Part shown: positions 29,501 through 43,349 of the stretch, piece by piece | How positions within the stretch are numbered: the stretch's first letter is position 1 | How the letters are laid out: the number at the start of each line of letters is the position of its first letter | Assembly: GCF_949628265.1 (NCBI RefSeq) | Contig: NC_088789.1 | Coordinates: 22,313,883 to 22,377,882, forward strand | Reading direction: 5' to 3' | From: Cloeon dipterum | Lineage: Eukaryota > Arthropoda > Insecta > Ephemeroptera > Baetidae | DNA length: 64,000 nucleotides | The notes under the pieces: generated by a model | The model's database searches: none | Told to the model about the DNA's origin: nothing | What the model saw: only the letters and a program-made list of their open reading frames with translations | Translations under genes and position numbers: made by a program

Positions 29501-31143
29501 TCCTGGCGCAGTCAGAACTCTCTTAGTCTCGCCTGCCGTCAAGGAGTGCAACTTGATCTGGCCGTCTGCACCGGCTGTCGCCGCAAGATCCGCGTCGGCC
29601 GCGATGGCCATATGCTTCAGGCCTGACGGGTGAGGCTGCAGCTGGAACAACTCGTGGCCGATTTCCTTGGGGTGCGTAGAGACCGCCACGAGGAAGCCCG
29701 CGGTGAATCCGAGAAGGATGTAGCCGTCCCCGAACCACTCGTAGGCAGCAACTTGGCCGTAACGCGGCTGGAAGGCCAGTTCGACCGGCTCGTCGCCCTC
29801 CGAGACCCGCAGCATGTATAAGGTCTTCTTTCCCACCACGACACTAACCTGAGGAAAAATTTGAAAAGATTTTTTTCATTATTTTATTTGCATTTACTTG
29901 GATAGACGTTAATCTAATTCTAATTGCTGAAAATAGTATTTCTTACCAGTTTCTTTTACTACACAGGACCAGATATGTATTTTTTGGGTTGGAAAATCTG
30001 GACTAAAATGCTAGCCTCTTGAGGATTAGGTAGATGATTTCAGCAATAAAGCCAACAGATCAGTTGATCACTAACTTAAAAAGTTTTGGCAAATGATTTA
30101 AAGTGGTGCCTAAAAATATTAAAATTTCTTGATTCACGCTCATTTCAAGGTCCCGCAAAGAATTGGCTATAAAGACATTTAACTAAATTTCACAGCCCTA
30201 CTCATCAGCTTAACCATTGCGTAGACGCATCCAGAAAATTCGGTTTTATTTACTTTCCATATTTTTTACTCGGTAAAATTAAGCCTAATTCTAAATTTTT
30301 TCATTAAAATTTACAGGGAAAATGATAGGTTTCCTAAATTAACGATAAGAATACATTTTCTAAATTTTAATTTAGGTTCAAATTACCGTGTCGTCTCCGT
30401 GGGGTTTGTCCTCAGTCTTGACTCGCCCAAACTTGATCTGCGAAGGCTCGGCTCGGAGCGCCACGGCTCTCAGGGTGTCCCCATCGGCCGTGCTGACGGA
30501 CAGACTCTTGTCCTCCGCAGCTAAAGCCAGCAAACCGGCCTTGCTCCACGCACCGCTCACGATTTGTCTGGGGGAACGGTCCAATGATTAATTAGAAAAA
30601 TGGTTCAAACCACCTTATATAATTATCAGAACCTGCTGTGTTTGCCGAGTACAGGCATGCGGCGGCCCGAGCGGTGGTCGTAGAGCACCAAATTGCCCTT
30701 TGCTGTGGCCAGGGCGAGGATGGCGTTGGGACCCCATCCCAGCCAAGAGACGCCCTCGCTAAGACCGCTGACGATGGGCTGTGGACGACGGGTCTGCGTC
30801 TCCCACAGGACCACCCTGGCCGAGCGCTCGCAGGAGGCGGCCAGCAGGTCGCCTTCCTCATCCCAGCAGAGGCCGTTGCACGTCCTATCAAGAATTTTCA
30901 ATATAATTTAAAAAACAAAAAATCCTGGGATTTACCCTGAGAGCGCAATCACATCCACCTGACGGCCCCGTCGGTCCCAAACAAAAACCTGCTGCTGGTG
31001 AGCGACGGCCACCAGCGACTTCTGCCAGGCCACCAGCGCCCCCGGAGACCCTGGAAGCGTCAGCAAGGCATCCTGGCATCGTCCGAGATATTAGTCTGAT
31101 AAATAAAATGAGTACGACCTCTTACCTGGACGCGTGGGTCCAT
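23579..31143 (-). CDS. WDR19: WD repeat protein 19 / intraflagellar transport protein IFT144
   Basis: Fifteen exons join in phase to about 1310 residues (human 1342): 31126-31143, 30936-31072, 30633-30884, 30387-30567, 29333-29848, 28447-28767, 27966-28115, 27501-27914, 26946-27232, 25823-26309, 24948-25358, 24301-24604, 23867-24144, 23731-23807, 23579-23678. IFT144 is a core subunit of the IFT-A complex that drives retrograde transport in cilia. The N-terminal half holds WD40 propellers (CNGLCWDEEGDLLAAS, KGNLVLYDHRSGRRMPVLGKH, SLSVSTADGDTLRAV). The C-terminal half is TPR-like helices (NWPKVAQLLPRV, AKAKEAEGRYAEAVAAY). The end carries zinc-ribbon Cys pairs (CPHC, CSRC, then CPHC, CPMC). The first coding exon is only 18 nt (MDPRVQ), followed by a 53-nt intron. 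Insects need IFT only in sensory neurons and sperm, so expression is probably restricted. Confidence 0.94.
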
Positions 31144-32623: not shown

Positions 32624-35600
32624 CTAATCGAAGCCAAACATGTTACTACCTGACATTCGCATGGGGGGCATCGAGGACATAGGACTTGTCGGGCTGGTCA
32701 TCTGGTTCATAGGCTTCGCAGACGTGGGAGATTGCTTGTTAGACCGTGAGGACAGCGACAAATTATCCAGGTCGATGTTGACGTTGCCCAGGTTGCTCCA
32801 CGTGCTGCCAATTGGCTGGATAAAAAATAGATGAGACTTCATTTTTTGAAAGTGTCTTTGGTTTGTTGCTCTGTCCCTACTGCTTTTTTTCAAAAGAGAC
32901 CAAAAACTGCTAGTGTAAGTAGATTGATATATCTTGAACTAATTACTTCTTATAAAAAGCAATAAAACTGAGAGATTCAAACAAATTTCATGAAATAAAG
33001 TCAAAATCAAAGCCCAAAATTTTGAACCAAAATATAAATTTTCAGAAAATAATTTCAGTAAAATAAACCCATTGTTAAAAATTTACATAAAATCATATTA
33101 AAAAAGCAACATGGCATAAAAACGTAACATACTTAAAATTGTCCATTATGACGACTTAAAAGTGAGAACAAATTAAATATCATCTCATTTAATGAATTGG
33201 TTTTCATTGTCTGCAAGAAATCCCAAAATAAGTTTCAGCGAAATGAAATCTTTTCCAGATTTTCTAAACCAATTGGGATTACTTGTTTGCAACTATTAAA
33301 AACTATTAAACTGCTATGAAAAAGTCCAGTTATTTTAAAAGGAAAGAAACACGACAGTCTTTTTGTCATTTATCCGATCAAGTTTGTTACCTGGTGGGAA
33401 GTTTTATTGATTTGTTGAGCTGGAGTGTTGTTGTTAGCGAGCGATGGTGCATTTGTCTGAATTGGGGTAAGATCCAAGCCAAGAGCTGCAACAAAATTAG
33501 AGTATTGAATTAGTTGAATTAGTTACGATTGAAAAAATATCAAGGGAAAAGGGGAAAACATACCTCTGTATTTATCCACTGATAGTTAAAACAGAAAAGT
33601 GGTTTACAAAATTAATGATCGTAATATGAGAAACGCAAGACGGCAATTTATTTGGTAAAGATTAATTCTACAGGAGAATTTCAAGTCCTTTGGAAGCCCA
33701 TTTGCGACACTCGGGCTCAGGGTCGTCCATGGCGATGGCTTGCAGTCGTCTACTGATCTCTTTGCGGTGCATGCACTCGAAAACGCCCTGCACGTCCAGG
33801 TTTGTGAGCGCCATCAGAAGGCATTTCAGTCCAGCGACCCGCACTTCTGCATCCGAGTGAGTGAATGGCCAGTGCGCCAGCACCAGCTCCTCCAGCAGGG
33901 CCAGGCTCATTTTCCTCGCACGGGGGCAGTTGACTGAGCAGGCCGTGATCACAGTCAGGGTGGCCAGCAGGTGCACTTGCAGTTCGGACAGCAGGTGGTC
34001 GGCATGCAGCACGGGCAGCAGAGGATAGAGGAAGTGCGGGGCCACCTGAGCGAATTTACTCTTCGTTTCGAGGACAGGCGGGCGGCTCGAGTGGATCCGG
34101 CGCGAGTTCTTTGGCAGTGGCGCCGGTTCCCAGGCAACGGCTGAAGAAGTGGGACCGCGGAACAGGTTGGCGGCGGCACTGCCCACGCTCTTCAGCACGC
34201 AGCTCAGGTACTGACTGGCGTATTTATTCCGCACGCCCAGCTGGCCGGCCAGGTGCTGCACGGCCTCCTCAGGGTGAACCTCGATCACGGCGACGACGCC
34301 ATCAGCGCATTTATTCAGGTCGAGGTTGAGCAGCGTGTCCAGCAGCTCGCACGCAAGGGAGGGGTCGTCGTCTGGGAGTTGAGCGCGGATCATGTCGGCC
34401 ACGCCGTCGAGCGACACCTCTGCGTCATCTTGGACCTTGTGCAGCAGTTCGCGGAGGAATACTGGCCTCGACTCGCCCTTAGCCGTGTCCGCGGACATGT
34501 CAAACGCCTCGAATTCGTCGTCTTCGTCGTCGCTGTCCAGGATTATGGAGGGCTTCTCCGATTCATTCGAAATATCAGAGAGTCTGGTGGACTCGAGCTT
34601 ATTCACCAAAGGAATAAATTCGCTTTTGCCCTCCTCCAAGAGATCGCGCAGCACCTCAAGCCACTCTCCTTCTGCAGTCTCCACGGTGACTTTCAGGTTG
34701 TTCAGGTGCTTCGTCAGTTCGTTTTCAGGGTCGTACTCGAATTTGAGGGGTTGAGCAGACGGAAGACACACTGCTAGAACGTGTTCGGCCACCACCATGC
34801 ACATGAATTTCTTCTCTGGCGAGGTGTCTTGCAGTCTCTTTGTCACGCCATTCATGACTTCTCTTTGGATAGGAACTTTCTTTTCTTCCAGCTGGCCCAT
34901 ATGTTTGGCCGCCCACACCAGCATTTCAGAAAGGTAGGTCTGCTGCTCAACGCTGGTATGGCTGATGGCGCTTTTGTTGGCCCAAACAGAGGCCACTTTG
35001 GTAACAAAATCAGCAAATTCTTCTTTCAACACGGCGGCAACCGTGTCAACGAGATTCAGAGGAAGGTTGCACTTTGGGTGGCTGCGAAGGAAGGGCTGGA
35101 CCACCAACAGTTGGTTTTTCACCTCAGGGGAAATCTCTTTCCCGATGATTTTGTCCATTGGTCCGTGCAAGAGCCACAAAGTGACGAAATTCTCGCAAGA
35201 TTTCCCTTCCAGAGCGTTGAGCAGTTTGGCGAACACAGAAGAAATGTTCTGGTCTTTTTGGCTGGCGGAAACTGCCACTTGGAAGAAAGTTTCAGCACTT
35301 TCAGTGCCTCCGTAATTCACCAACAGTTTGGACAGAAAGAGAGCCAGCTTGTGAACTTTCCAAGGCACTGCACACTTTTCCGCATTGGATAAGAAATCTA
35401 CCACCAGTCCAAACTGGTAGAATAGAATGGCACTGAAACTCTCAGGCTTGCAAAACGCGGGCAGCTCTTTTCGCAAGACATTTCCGATCCTGGCAGGAAG
35501 GGAGACGATTATCTGGACTGTGGCAGCCCACTCGAGCTCTTGCTCATCGTCATGCCAGAACCTGCATTGCTTCAGGACAAAGTCCGCCAACTGAGACCGC

Positions 35601-38600
35601 AGACAGGGCTCAATCACTTTGATCAACTGGTTTCTCGCCGCAAGCAGATCCAGAGCCTGTCTCAGCAGCTCGTCCACAGGCGCGAGCTGACAGAAGGCTA
35701 GCAGTTCCGGACTCGGGTCTCTGCTTCTCAGCCTGGTTTGCAAGACGTCTTGCCATAGTTGCGACTGACTTGGTGGAGTGGCGTCCAGGCCGCTGAACTT
35801 CTGAGGCGTCTCCGGCCCCTCGAGGCAACCGTTCGCTTCGAGCAAGTGCAGGTCCGAGCTCAGGTCTTTGCTATTGCGCATTCGCAGCACGGCTATAAAC
35901 GGGGACAAAGATGTTTCTCTTTCCTGGTTTTTCACTCATCCCGTGCTTAAAGGGTTGCAATTTTTAAACACACTTACCAGAAGGAATGTTTCCAGAGTCG
36001 AGAGGGTTGTTTGATCCAAACAAATCGTCCAGGCCGCCGCCCATCGGAGCTGGCCTGGTTGGCCCACTGAACGCGTTTGCACCAAACAGGTTAGGACCTC
36101 CCATCAGGCTGACTGGCGCACTCACTGGCGGCTGGCTGCCCAAGCCCATCAGAAGGTCAGCGTTGGACGCAGCACCTTCAAATTTATTAAGTTGTGTTAA
36201 TTGAAGATGAAATGATCTAATTTTGTTTATCTAGTTTATCTTTTAATTCCAACTAGATTTTGAAATGTTCAAAAAAGTATAACATTACACCAAGATTAAA
36301 ATTCTTAGTAATAATAAAAAAACAGTGTTTGGATAATCAATTAGAGCGAGTTTTACTTGAAATATTCGTATCCGTCGACAATGTCTGACATAAATTGATT
36401 AGAAAACATTTAAATTATTTTCATTTTTAATAAGATGACCATATATAGATGTAAAAAATTAAAAATAAGTTTTTCATCTACATAGATTTTAAAACTTTTA
36501 ACTTAATCACTTAGATTGCCAAATTAAATTTTGTGTCTTCTGAATTTGGTTCCTATAAATTCCTGGTACAAAAGAACCACTGCAAAACTTGAAATATTTT
36601 GACTGAGATAATCGCAATGAAAAGCGGAGAGCTAATGGATAATTTCCACATCAAGTAGAAAATTAAAAACTAAAATAATTATAACGAGTTAAAAATTAAA
36701 AATTCATGTAATTATTCCACAACATGTAATTTGGAGTTGAGACATGTCTTTCAAAAATAACTCAAAGGCTTATTAAAGTAATCAAATAAAATAATAATGA
36801 CACACCAAACAACGCTGATAAGATAACAGTGCTCCCAATAGGAGTAAAAACGCAATTTAAAAAATGAAAATACCTGTGGAAGCAGTGTTGGCGGAAGGCA
36901 TGAAAGCAGGCAAGGAACTTGTCTGGTCACTGAACGCCGTGTGGAAGTCAGCAAAGTCATCTTCCGACTTTGGAGAAGTGGTTGTCTCCACCGCGGTGTG
37001 GAATTCGCCGAAATCAGACGTTTCAGCTGGCTCACTGGCGCGCGGATTGAAGTCGTCATCCACGGACGCAAACAAATCACTTGACGTTTTGACTGGGCTC
37101 GTCTTCTGAGAATGAAATCAATGATTCACTGATCTAAATGATCCAAATTTCAACCACCTTGGCTTCTTTGGCGAATGTAGCTGCAGCACCAAGGTCAACT
37201 TTCTTGATATTCCTGGTTGAAGTTGGCTGCTTGGTGGTGGGAGCGTTTTTCGACGGCAGCGGAGACTTGAAGCCATTGCCGCTGTGCGACATCTTTTCAG
37301 GGGAATCCAGGCTCTCGCTGTCCTTGTACTCGTTTTTGCTGCTCTTCTCGCGCTGCCTTGGCGAAGGCACGTCGCTGTCGCTATCATTGTGTTCACCCTC
37401 GTCACTGCAAATTATGATTTCATTAGTTCCAATAATAAAAATAGTAAATCAACAATTGTAATACTTCATTTTGTAATGACCACGAAAAAATGCACCTTTC
37501 GAAAATAAATAGCTAAAATTTTGTTCACGATTATTGCAGGTGCATTCGGTTCATTTCTCTTTCAAACTCACCTGAATCGGTCAGAGTTCTTGTTGTTGCC
37601 ACCGCCGCCGCCACCCCAATCTGAGTATTCTGACTGGTCCCTGCGTCCTCCACCGCCTCCGCCTGTGCCCATTCCACCCCATGAAGATGAACTGTCTTCC
37701 CAGCCTCCTCCGCCTCCAAAACGCATTCCCATCGAGTCGCTGGACATGCCGATGTACTTGTCCTTGTTTTTCTTGGCCTTTTTTCTCTCCTCCCTCAGTC
37801 TGTCATCATCTTGGACGAAGTCAATTAGCTCTTTAACTTTGTGCCTGCACATAAAATTGTCAAAAAACAGACGCAAATAAAATTATTCTCATTTACCTAA
37901 CGTTGATGCCCTGGTCTTTGCCATTCTCATCAAAATATGAATAATTCTCCAGACCTCTGAGGTCGTAAATGTGTTCTCTTGCCGACGTGACAACTCTCTC
38001 AGAACCATTTTTCACAAGATAGTTGAGAAGTAGCAGCGACTGGACAAAAATCAGGAAAATTATTGAACTATTTTCAGTTATTTTCACCGGCATTGCTCAC
38101 TTTGTAAGTTCTTCGCCAATTTCTTCTATTGTCTTGGAGCATTCTTCTCCAAAGCATTGTCATCACTTCAGGGAAATGCTCATAGGTAAAGGTGTGCTGA
38201 GCAACATCCTGCATTTGTTGGCCTGAATAATTCATTAAATTTAGTAAACAATAGACCCTTTTACTATTTTTAAGTAGTACCAGTTGGTCCCCAGGAATCA
38301 TCATTAGTAGCTTCTCGGACCTTGGCCTCTACATCAGTGTAATTCATCACCACATTGGTGCTGCAATTTAAAATGAAAAGAATAAAACCTTAAACCCAGA
38401 CTTTATTAAAGCAATTGTTTGCATTTGTATAACTATGATAATAATATTTTTGACCTACTTTAACCAATACATTTTCGCTTAAGACAAATTATTATATCTA
38501 AGTAGAAGGTAATAATATAAAATGAAGGCCAGAGTAAAATCCTGATACGTCGTCATTAATGCACGAAGCATACACAATTGGGTGAAAGTTGCAGAGCGGA

Positions 38601-38889
38601 ACCACAAAAAAATCATTTCACACAGCTGTCATTAACCGTGTCTGCGAAAATCAAGCAATTAAAACTCCACAATTTTCTTACAGGCAGTTTGCAATTATTT
38701 TAAAGAAAAATATTATATAAATCAATTGAATATAAATGACACGGAAGAGGTCAATAAATACACAAAATGAATAATTGGCTCGGACGATGCAAGAGGCCAG
38801 GGGGCGTCATCCATCGACCACCGCCGGATTGTGCATCAATTTTGCCTGGATACTTACACTTTATCAGCGATCTCGCGGACTTTCCACAT
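32624..38889 (-). CDS. lqfR: Clathrin interactor 1 / EpsinR (liquid facets-Related), with alternative TELO2-like exon
   Basis: The EpsinR exons are 38858-38889, 38281-38360, 38101-38222, 37897-38039, 37572-37844, 37158-37404, 36874-37105, 35978-36175, 33564-33578 (microexon), 33391-33485 and 32624-32815, about 542 residues in all. The protein is a clathrin adaptor of the Golgi/endosome. Its ENTH domain begins MWKVREIADKVTNVVMNYT and runs through WGPTG, WRRTYKSLLLLNYLVKNGSE and a Lys/Arg-rich helix. A Gly/Trp-rich and Ser/Lys linker follows. Next come two acidic Phe motifs, SDFGEF and DDFADF, of the kind that bind gamma-ear domains of AP-1 and GGA, then a Met/Ser/Pro tail ending NMFGFD. Exon 8 ends in phase 1 and can join either the microexon or the large TELO2-like exon listed separately, giving a second protein of about 1183 residues. 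It shares a short upstream region with OXA1L. Confidence 0.92.
33564..33578 (-). CDS. lqfR: 15-nt microexon of EpsinR
   Basis: Minus-strand TGGATAAATACAGAG is flanked by AACTATCAG on its 5' side and GTATGT on its 3' side. It is phase 1 on both sides. It adds VDKYR, giving SVDKYRALGLDLTP across the junctions, which continues smoothly into the next exon. It lies just downstream of the TELO2-like exon's stop codon, so it belongs to the EpsinR-only path. Without it the reading frame also stays open (SALGLDLTP), so it could be a cassette exon. Confidence 0.7.
33668..35892 (-). CDS. lqfR: TELO2 (Tel2)-like exon fused to EpsinR
   Basis: A single uninterrupted 2225-nt exon follows an acceptor (TTTATAG) and ends in its own stop codon. 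Read in phase 1 after EpsinR exon 8 it adds about 740 residues, beginning VLRMRNSKDL. TELO2 works with TTI1 and TTI2 and with Hsp90/R2TP to stabilise PIKK kinases (ATM, ATR, mTOR, DNA-PK). The conserved middle domain is seen at RPVFLRELLHKVQ to EEAVQHLAGQL. The C-terminal helical repeats run from HFLYPLLPVLHADHLL to CRKWASKGLEILL. The frame has many internal ATGs but no upstream promoter of its own is evident. In Drosophila lqfR also carries a Tel2-derived exon and makes an EpsinR-Tel2 fusion. The lack of introns in 2.2 kb suggests a retro-copied origin, which is inference. Confidence 0.88.
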
Positions 38890-39098: not shown

Positions 39099-41728
39099 AT
39101 GGCCGCCTTTGTAATTCCTCGTGCGGCGAATTTTGCCAAATTTCGGCATGTCACAACTGTAGTTAGTGTTTTTCCCAATTGCGAGGTACATGTCATGTTG
39201 ACGATCACTTTTTGCTACTGAAAATACAATAAAATTAGTTTTTAGAGTCGAATTGTTTGCAATCAATGGCTGTTAAAAATGAGACACCATGCTTTCTGTG
39301 ATTTCAAACACCAAACAGGAATTTTTATTGACGTTCCAGACTAAACTCTACATTTTACTGACTTATTAACATTCTTCAGTTAATACGATATTAATGTATA
39401 ATTGTCATTCATTTTAGTCTCTAAAAAATGATTATCAGAAAATGATGCAATTGAATTTAATTTATTTTTAATTTAATTCTTCCAGGCTCTAATTAAAAAC
39501 CACACATCAGTTCGGCATCACAGCCTGTCGGCCTGCAGATCGCAGAACAATGTGCTGCGTTCAGCAATGTCCACTCGTTCGCCGGGCGTGCTCTTGGCGT
39601 GGAGGGCGGCCAGCACAACGCCAGACCCAAACACATTCGTCAAGTACAGCGGCCCTTCGACGCCTCCGCAGTCGGTCCAGGAGAAAGAGAGCTTCGTGTC
39701 TGAGGTGACACTAGAAGATATTCCAGCTCCTCCTGAATTGCCAACTGTCGAGCCGGAATTGCTAAATGCGCTTGGCGAACCGACTCTCCAGTCGTTGGGC
39801 CTGGGTGGATGGACGCCGCCTGGGATTCTGCAAAACTGCATGGAGTTCCTTCACGTAGACTGCGCGCTTCCCTGGTGGGGCGCTATCATGACAGGTGAAT
39901 TGGTTAATTAAAATGTTAAATTTTGGATCATATTTATATGATTTTGCAGGAACTCTGGTTGCGAGGTTAGTGATGTTCCCGTTGGTGGTGAAGGCGCAAC
40001 AGAACTCTGCGAAAATGAACAATAATTTGCCGCAGATGCAGGTCTTACAAATGAAAATGTCTGAAGCTAGACAAACCGGCAATCAACTTGATGGTGAATT
40101 GAAGATTTTTAGAAATAATTAAGAAAAATACTTAATTAGATATTAATTTTCTCAGCCGCAAGATATGCTCAGGAACTGATGGTTTTCATGAGGGAGAAAG
40201 ATATCAGTCCCTTCAAAAACATGCTGGTACCTCTGGCGCAGGTATAAAATTTATAAATTGAAAAATCTAGAAATTACCATGTTAATCATTTTCAGGCTCC
40301 GATTTTCATCTCCTTTTTTGTTGGTCTCAGAAAAATGGCAAACGCACCAGTTGAGAGTTTCCACACTGGCGGCATTTTTTGGTTCACAGACCTGACAGTT
40401 TGCGATCCTTACTACATTTTGCCCGTCATCACGAGTTTAACTCTGTGGGCCACCATTGAGGTTGGCACCGACACAGCCAGACTGTCAAGCCAGAACATGC
40501 ACTTAATGAAATACGTCCTCAGGGCAATGCCAATCATCATTTTCCCCTTCACAATGAATTTCCCAGCTGTGAGTGTTCACAGTTAGTGAAGATATTGATG
40601 CTCAATGTTTTATTTCTATTTTTAGGCTATTCTTTGTTACTGGATGTCTTCGAATTTCATTTCCTTGGTGCAAGTGGCGTTCTTGAAAATTCCCTCAGTT
40701 AGGGAGTATTGCAATATTGAGAAGCTCATCACGCACGACCCCAACAGTTTGCCAAGGAAGAATAAGGGATTTGTCAAGGGATTTAAAGAATGTAAGTTCT
40801 ATTTTATGTTCCTTAAAGGGAAACTCGTTGAATTTTTTGTTTTTATTGAATTTTTGTGGGCTTTCATTGCATTAAATTTCCGATTTGATGATTATAGAAA
40901 TTTTGCAGGACCAAAAATTTAAAAATTGATTTAAAAACAGTTTTTGCTCAATTCACATGAAATTAGTTCACAGAAAAAATTCGATGAGACAAATCGTCAA
41001 ATGTCATATTTGACATTCAAGTAAACTTTTAAATTCCTGCTGTAAAGGGTCACTCGTAATTAAAAAAATTACCATTTTCTCAAATGTACAATTTCCTATT
41101 TTTTACATGCCAAACAATATTTTCTTGACTTTTATAGAAAAATTAAAACTGAAAATTGGGGTTTTTGCAACTGGTTCCCAAAGATAGAAATAGAGCAACA
41201 TGACCTAGGAGTTATAGTTAAAAAGTTTGAAAATAGTAATTTTCCCAGCCAAAGAGGAAAAATATTTTTTAACTTATATAAATTCTAATTTAAACTTTTA
41301 TGAAAAAATCTAATGCGAACAAGAATTGTTAGAACTCCAGTTGTTAAATATAATAAAAAAAATGCAGAGCCTACAAACACATTCTAAAGGGAATTTTTAT
41401 GGAAACAAATATCAACGTTTCTTGTCAAAACATATTCAATGAATACCAATTTCTCCCCTAGGTTTACAAAATTGTAACTTTAAATCTCTTTTGTCTGCGT
41501 GGATTTTCACATTTTGACCACATAACTATCAGTCAATTAATTTAATTCTCTGAAAAATAATATGCTGCAGCCTGGGACAACATGAAGGTGACAAAGGAGA
41601 TGGAGGAGAGGGCGAGGTTCAACGATTCGCAGTTCCAGAAATACGGCGAGGGTCCGATCCCAAAGACCTACAAGTTCGACCCAACGCGACAGAGGAATGC
41701 AGTTGCCGCGAAGAAGCGAGACAAGTAG
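39099..41728 (+). CDS. OXA1L: Mitochondrial inner-membrane insertase OXA1L
   Basis: Seven exons (39099-39185, 39486-39894, 39950-40093, 40156-40241, 40296-40568, 40626-40791, 41571-41728) give about 440 residues. OXA1-family insertases place mitochondrially made and some nuclear-encoded proteins into the inner membrane. The N-terminus MAAFVIPRAANFAKFRH is basic and hydroxyl-poor, a plausible mitochondrial presequence. LGLGGWTPPGILQN..LPWWGAI marks the start of the 60KD_IMP domain. Hydrophobic segments follow, with GTLVARLVMFPLVV, APIFISFFVGLRKMA, GGIFWFTDLTVCDPYYILP and YWMSSNFISLVQVAFL. A basic C-terminal tail (YKFDPTRQRNAVAAKKRDK) faces the matrix and would contact the mitoribosome. Intron 6 is long (779 bp). 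The gene is divergent from CLINT1 and convergent with the CIAO2B-like gene. Confidence 0.94.
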
Positions 41729-41913: not shown

Positions 41914-43349
41914 TCAGCTCCCCGAGATTGATGTCGTCGCGGAGATTCCGTCAGGATTTCCGCAGCTGGCTGGTTTGTCGTAGTGAATGTCGCTGTCCTC
42001 TTCGAAGGTCAAACACTGTTCAATGACTGCAAGGAGATTTCTGTTTTCCATAGCGGCCGCCACTCTCTCCTTGTCGGCGAGCTGTTTGTTGATTGGATGC
42101 TCGGACACGTGCGTCCCTGGGGAAATTCGCACTGTGACCTATGACACAAACGGTTACTGATGTCCTGGTTGGTTTAATTTGGAAAGAAGACTCACTTTGA
42201 AAGTTGGAGGTAGGGTTCTCAGCAACCTGACTCGAATGGCTAGACCAATCATGGTGGCCATGCTGCAATGTGGAATGGTTGGTGTGAACAAAACCATCAC
42301 CTCTCTCTCGTTGTACACCTGATATTTTAATAATTCAGTTAATCCAGCAATTTTATCAATTTTAAAATATACCTTGACATCAGCCTGATTTACAACATTC
42401 AGTGCTTCGAGGGTGAGAGGATGCTCTGGGTCCATTATATTTCGAATGAGCTCTGCAAACGTGGGAAATAATTAAGTGAATCTAAAAAGGAATTTTGTTA
42501 TTTTCCTGGAATTCTGACAGGACTAGAAAATTTGTTTCAGGGCCTGGAAAGGACAGAAAATTTTTTGAATCTTCAAATTTCTTGAAAGACAATTCAAACT
42601 TCTTCAGATCAAAGTTTTCAGAGATAGTTTTTTTAATGACAGATTAGTGCAGTGACTTCTAGACGGTATCTGAGCTTATTCAGACGTGTTTTTTAGATTA
42701 AATTTTTTTTCTAAGAAAAACATTGTTTCTTTATAACGTTGTGAGAAATAGAGACATTAAGTATCCTAAAAAGTCCAGAGTTTTCAGAATTTTTGGTATT
42801 ATAAGAGACACTATAAGAAACATCTGGAGAATTCCACTCTCTGGAACCGCATATCAGAAAGTGAGAATCAAATGCAATAACTACTACTGGAATTTTAAAA
42901 GTGAATCTATTCAAAAGAAAAATTATGTTAAATTTAAAAGATAATTGCAACCATAGTAAATTGAGAAAATTAACTAGTAATAATTGCTGTTCAATCAATT
43001 AAGAATTGAAAAGAAAATCCTAAAAAGAGGAAATAAAATTAAATTCAGTTGCCGGAACATGACAGCGCAAATATGCAATTTTCAATCAGGAGCAGGGCAG
43101 TAAATTTACCGTCCAGAACAGGATAGAACCGGAATGAAACATTCTTTCATGAATTCGCTCTACAGTCTACAGTGAAAATTATTCAGACTAACCATAAATC
43201 CCTTTTGAATCGAACTTTCCATCAGAGTTTTCTTGGCAGCATCCGGATTTTGTGGCTGAAGGTTTAATTTCATCTTGACAACATCCACGTGCAGGCACTT
43301 CCTGAGAATCTGTGGATGGTCCAGACGCACAAGCACACGCACAACTCAT
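41914..43349 (-). CDS. CIAO2B: MIP18-family cytosolic Fe-S assembly protein, CIAO2B-like, with Cys-rich N-terminus
   Basis: Four exons (43193-43349, 42373-42452, 42196-42318, 41914-42138) give about 194 residues. CIAO2B with CIAO1 and MMS19 hands Fe-S clusters to nuclear and cytosolic proteins. The domain is unmistakable: [40 protein letters not shown] with the reactive Cys, and [20 protein letters not shown] ending IEQCL. Two parts are unusual. The N-terminus starts [10 protein letters not shown] and has further Cys pairs (GCCQ, GCCQ) in place of the normal acidic leader. After EQCL there is an extra tail of about 30 residues ([11 protein letters not shown]..). The ATG at 43349 is preceded at once by TTTCAG, which looks like an acceptor, so an upstream exon with another start is possible. 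It may be a divergent paralog rather than the main CIAO2B. Confidence 0.88.

Follow-up and report, generated by a model that had tools for sequence, protein, structure and literature searches.

The gene described here is, with a probability of about 90%, the counterpart of Drosophila lqfR/Tel2, that is, an EpsinR (clathrin-adaptor) gene which carries TELO2, a chaperone of PIKKs, as an alternative last exon within one of its introns and in which one promoter would give rise to either product. It is a known insect fusion and not a new kind of gene, and as an example it is real, well formed and ordinary. The gene lies on the minus strand of the window (the whole stretch of 64,000 nt that was analysed), and coordinates are positions within this window unless a contig (C1, C2 or C5) is named. 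Its shared part comprises eight coding exons (38889-35978, minus strand) encoding an ENTH protein of the EpsinR type, after which two continuations are available. The features of the gene are listed below together with the basis of each assignment.

38858-38889, minus strand: EpsinR coding exon 1 (MWKVREIADKV); reading frame and GT donor, with an inferred start codon
38281-38360, minus strand: EpsinR exon 2 (ENTH); gene model and Pfam domain match
38101-38222, minus strand: EpsinR exon 3 (ENTH); gene model, Pfam domain match and exon match
37897-38039, minus strand: EpsinR exon 4 (ENTH); gene model, Pfam domain match and exon match
37572-37844, minus strand: EpsinR exon 5 (end of ENTH, linker); gene model and Pfam domain match
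37158-37404, minus strand: EpsinR exon 6 (linker); gene model
36874-37105, minus strand: EpsinR exon 7 (linker, containing DFGEF and DDFADF); gene model
35978-36175, minus strand: EpsinR exon 8, the last shared exon, ending in phase 1; gene model
33668-35892, minus strand: alternative terminal exon, TELO2-like, closed by a stop of its own and adding 741 residues; gene model and homology
33647-33652, minus strand: AATAAA, candidate poly(A) signal for the TELO2 form; motif scan
33564-33578, minus strand: microexon of 15 nt (VDKYR) on the path to the EpsinR tail; gene model
33391-33485, minus strand: EpsinR tail exon; gene model
32624-32815, minus strand: EpsinR last coding exon, ending SGSNMFGFD; gene model

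All introns of the gene model are of the GT-AG type and the reading frame is open throughout. The earlier note had claimed that the donor at 35978 is in phase 1 and that both paths from it keep the frame, and this splice geometry was confirmed by the gene model, in which both isoforms are open. The donor of exon 8 reads CTG/GTAAGT (the slash marks the exon boundary) and can be joined to the large-exon acceptor at 35892 (TTTATAG/CC) across an intron of 85 nt, or to the microexon at 33578-33564 across an intron of 2,399 nt; the microexon has a CTATCAG/TG acceptor and a GAG/GTATGT donor and preserves the frame. The large exon (35892-33668) measures 2,225 nt and is open down to a TAG at 33670-33668, and together with the 85-nt intron it makes up the span 33668-35978. 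The predicted products are a fusion protein of 1,183 aa and a short EpsinR of 542 aa, which have 442 whole codons in common, and each contains one stop only, located at its end. Phase agreement by itself is expected by chance about once in three cases; the case for a real exon rests on its 740 open codons and on homology. The chance expectation of such an open frame is about 2e-13 (calculated from the exon's own base composition with bases taken as independent), and the two remaining frames of that strand contain 31 and 28 stops. Read from the sequence, the gene is real and well formed, with a predicted phase-matched choice between the TELO2-like exon and the path through the microexon to the tail.

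The TELO2-like character which the earlier note had ascribed to the large exon was supported by a search of solved structures, where the exon protein matched human TELO2 (7f4u) with an E-value of 1.6e-19. Two stretches were aligned, exon residues 107-533 to residues 139-573 (i-E 1.6e-13) and 607-738 to 686-823 (i-E 0.006), which combined cover 559 of the 740 exon residues. The five matches returned by this search were three TELO2 chains and two unrelated ones at E >0.6. The Pfam model TELO2_ARM reached E 6.4e-6 and 26.2 bits in hmmscan, 0.8 bit under its cut-off of 27, and 27.5 bits in the genome search, 0.5 bit above it, and Telomere_reg-2 (E 2.2e-4) scored 22 bits against a cut-off of 23.6, falling 1.6 bits short. 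A weak HEAT match was also noticed in Pfam, and a single-sequence structure prediction of the exon protein was all-helical, at a confidence too low to bear on an alpha-solenoid fold (mean pLDDT 43.5). By sequence comparison the large exon is a TELO2 homologue over most of the protein, the similarity being far beyond chance.

In the short product an ENTH domain (PF01417) was located by Pfam search at residues 18-142 with E 9.4e-49, accompanied by weak ANTH and DUF5677 matches below their cut-offs. The DFGEF and DDFADF sequences of exon 7 resemble adaptor-ear motifs and are putative binding sites. A second ENTH gene was found at C1:27.30 Mb, with a stronger exon match than the EpsinR-type gene; the latter is tentatively taken to be EpsinR, and not another epsin, by its lqfR-like layout.

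In Drosophila melanogaster, as two papers give it (PMC3460857, PMC3197181), lqfR/Tel2 has a layout of seven exons, in which exons 1-5 are joined to exon 6 or to exon 7, and it encodes LqfRa of 1415 aa and LqfRb of 649 aa. According to these papers, the fly fusion is backed by reported RT-PCR, Northern and protein blot results, the fusion is mentioned by the authors for other Drosophila species and other insects with data not shown, and CLINT1 and Tel2 are encoded apart from each other in yeast, in nematodes and in vertebrates. The likeness to lqfR which had been claimed for the present gene holds: there is one gene with a common EpsinR part, and Tel2 forms one large terminal alternative exon between the shared and the tail exons, with the frame kept. 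The shared part differs, however, having here eight coding exons and 442 whole codons in comparison with 492 aa in the fly, the TELO2 part adds 741 aa in comparison with 921 or 924 aa (the figures of the two papers), and the tail consists of a 15-nt microexon and two exons in place of fly exon 7. In contrast to this arrangement, vertebrates have the same two proteins, CLINT1/EpsinR and TELO2, encoded by separate genes. Since the layout is that of Drosophila lqfR, for which other insects are mentioned as well, the gene counts as one more example of an established fusion, and it adds a genome to the published cases, together with a genome search that found no other TELO2. Should this lineage be far removed from flies, two proteins whose functions can be separated would have stayed united over a very long time, and it may be asked why the union was never undone.

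The genome searched was an assembly of 190 Mb in 10 contigs, of which C1 to C5 measure 33 to 43 Mb. When the exon protein was compared with the whole assembly (E up to 1), one place was matched, which was the exon itself, and the TELO2_ARM model (E up to 10) also led to one place, the same large exon. Among the control genomes searched with TELO2_ARM at E up to 10, one of 14 was matched (Thermotoga maritima, under the cut-off), therefore matches at this level can arise by chance. The Telomere_reg-2 model gave no candidates in the assembly at E 0.001, where the known exon itself was missed, and none in the control genomes. The check for a second TELO2 gene which the earlier note had proposed thus ended with none found in the 190-Mb assembly by protein and TELO2_ARM searches of limited sensitivity, and this should be read as "none found" and not as "none exists", because a copy with many introns may escape and because Telomere_reg-2 missed the known exon. 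Protein scans for relatives gave 142 pattern stretches in bacterial and archaeal contigs and 18 in viral contigs, none of which was confirmed.

If the gene is the counterpart of lqfR/Tel2, one promoter would feed both products. On one path 35978 would be spliced to 35892, with cleavage downstream of the AATAAA at 33652, and an ENTH-linker-TELO2 protein of 1,183 aa would result; on the other, 2.4 kb would be skipped to the microexon and the tail exons, giving plain EpsinR of 542 aa. Both mRNAs are probably made, and the fused protein would provide TTT, the co-chaperone of PIKKs, with its Tel2 activity. The two outcomes may compete in time, the terminal exon (with its 85-nt intron and near poly(A) signal) being either defined first or skipped in favour of the microexon acceptor, and the analogy to Drosophila implies that the TELO2 terminal exon would be selected via splicing coupled to polyadenylation. 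Acceptor strengths do not settle the isoform choice. On a matrix built from only the ten other acceptors of the same gene, the TELO2 acceptor was the lowest of 11 with a score of -7.0, in part because it ends in TAG (nine of the ten others end in CAG), and its tract contains 13 pyrimidines out of 16, tied highest of the 11. When all 164 AGs of the stretch were ranked, first place went to the microexon acceptor, itself part of the matrix, and the TELO2 acceptor stood outside the best eight. The AATAAA at 33652 begins 16 nt past the TELO2 stop, a position that is suggestive only, since the motif is not rare in the scanned stretch: it occurs four times in the 2,468 bases from the TELO2 stop onward (33652, 33408, 31349 and 31275), and ATTAAA occurs there once.

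The same exon could belong to a nested gene, whose promoter would lie in exon 8 or in the 85-nt intron and whose translation would begin with the ATG at 35881, the fusion being rare or absent. In the frame of the exon an ATG first occurs at residue 5, near a plausible start of a free TELO2, but its context (CTGCGA ATG C) is poor in comparison with the consensus. When 36300-35880 was scanned for promoter patterns on the same strand, no TATA box turned up, and the one initiator-like sequence was TCATTT at 36215, within the intron that precedes exon 8; this outcome is weak evidence against a nested gene. The presence of a phase-matched, pyrimidine-rich acceptor also speaks against it. Drosophila bears on both sides of the question. 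In PMC3460857, lqfR nulls were rescued by exon 6 alone and not by exons 1-5, and the authors concluded that the two parts have independent functions; this rescue favours a free TELO2 and makes the fused part dispensable for the functions tested in Drosophila. PMC3197181 describes, however, only an mRNA of about 5 kb with the exon-6 probe, which was also seen by the exon 3-5 probe. A nested gene is, on this evidence, quite improbable. A point against the fusion reading is that the authors of PMC3197181 were unable to produce and sequence a long-form cDNA. A decayed TELO2 insertion that is never used is hardly credible, given the length of its open frame and the finding of no other TELO2 in the assembly.

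The interpretation given in the earlier note is supported in part as a whole; with regard to origin, the retro-insertion put forward there is plausible. The exon has no intron, sits within an intron of the host gene, flanked by exons of the host, and is followed by AATAAA soon after the stop, which fits such an event, but the direct hallmark, a flank repeat, was not found: 36000-35860 and 33700-33560 (141 bases each) have no common word of 8 to 14 bases. In shuffled flanks a word of 8 was shared in 129 of 500 shuffles, and the missing repeat neither supports nor refutes retro-insertion, because an old event would leave none. Less probably, though by no means remotely, an intron-bearing TELO2 gene was moved or fused into this place without any retro-insertion and its introns disappeared afterwards, a course that bears on the origin and not on the present structure. 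The lack of a shared repeat of 8 or more bases agrees with later intron loss, and intron loss is common in compact genomes; the host exons on both sides nevertheless fit an insertion better than an end-to-end fusion of neighbours, and the exon is single here and in Drosophila alike. It may tentatively be proposed that the fusion dates from an early winged insect or earlier and has been the lineage's only source of Tel2 since, in which case Tel2 would be tied to a membrane-adaptor domain and the ratio of PIKK chaperone to EpsinR would be set by one splice/poly(A) choice.

The FATC ends of PIKKs gave nine matches in the assembly, eight of them above the cut-off, at six loci, and one of 14 control genomes was matched, under the cut-off. 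When one FATC piece per locus was compared with solved structures, the best matches were ATM, ATR (E 7.8e-5), mTOR, SMG1, DNA-PKcs (9.7e-6) and TRRAP (3.4e-6); the pieces behind these assignments are 25 to 104 residues long. With FATC pieces of six PIKK types matched, this genome seems to contain the Tel2 clients that PMC10178989 names. The Tti2 model gave three weak matches, none above the cut-off. Three of the eight FATC matches above the cut-off are SMG1-like C-terminal ends lying within about 95 kb (C5:28775526-28778615, 28868077-28871166 and 28789425-28792514), of which the copy at C5:28775526-28778615 was the one covered by the solved-structure comparison. Their 30 residues in the FATC match are identical and the DNA pieces covering it are 83 to 87% alike; they may be either neighbouring duplicates of the nonsense-mediated decay kinase or fragments. 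The DNA-PKcs-like FATC end, of 27 residues, lies at C2:12727724-12730801; Drosophila is not known to have DNA-PKcs.

An exact run of five TTAGG units was not found in the 190-Mb assembly by a DNA search that skips simple repeats; the telomeres may carry a repeat other than the usual one of insects, or the repeat may be absent from the assembly or have been skipped by the search. Around the gene, a divergent neighbour lies upstream of EpsinR at 39477-40583 (plus strand), which looks like OXA1L; its part 40257-40583 matches 60KD_IMP with E 4.1e-6, under the cut-off, and its part 39477-39908 is without a match. The downstream neighbour on the same strand (30626-30904, minus) is WDR19-like, with a first beta-propeller at E 6.7e-24, and a reading frame at 42154-42471 (minus strand) has a match above the cut-off to FeS_assembly_P (iron-sulfur cluster assembly).
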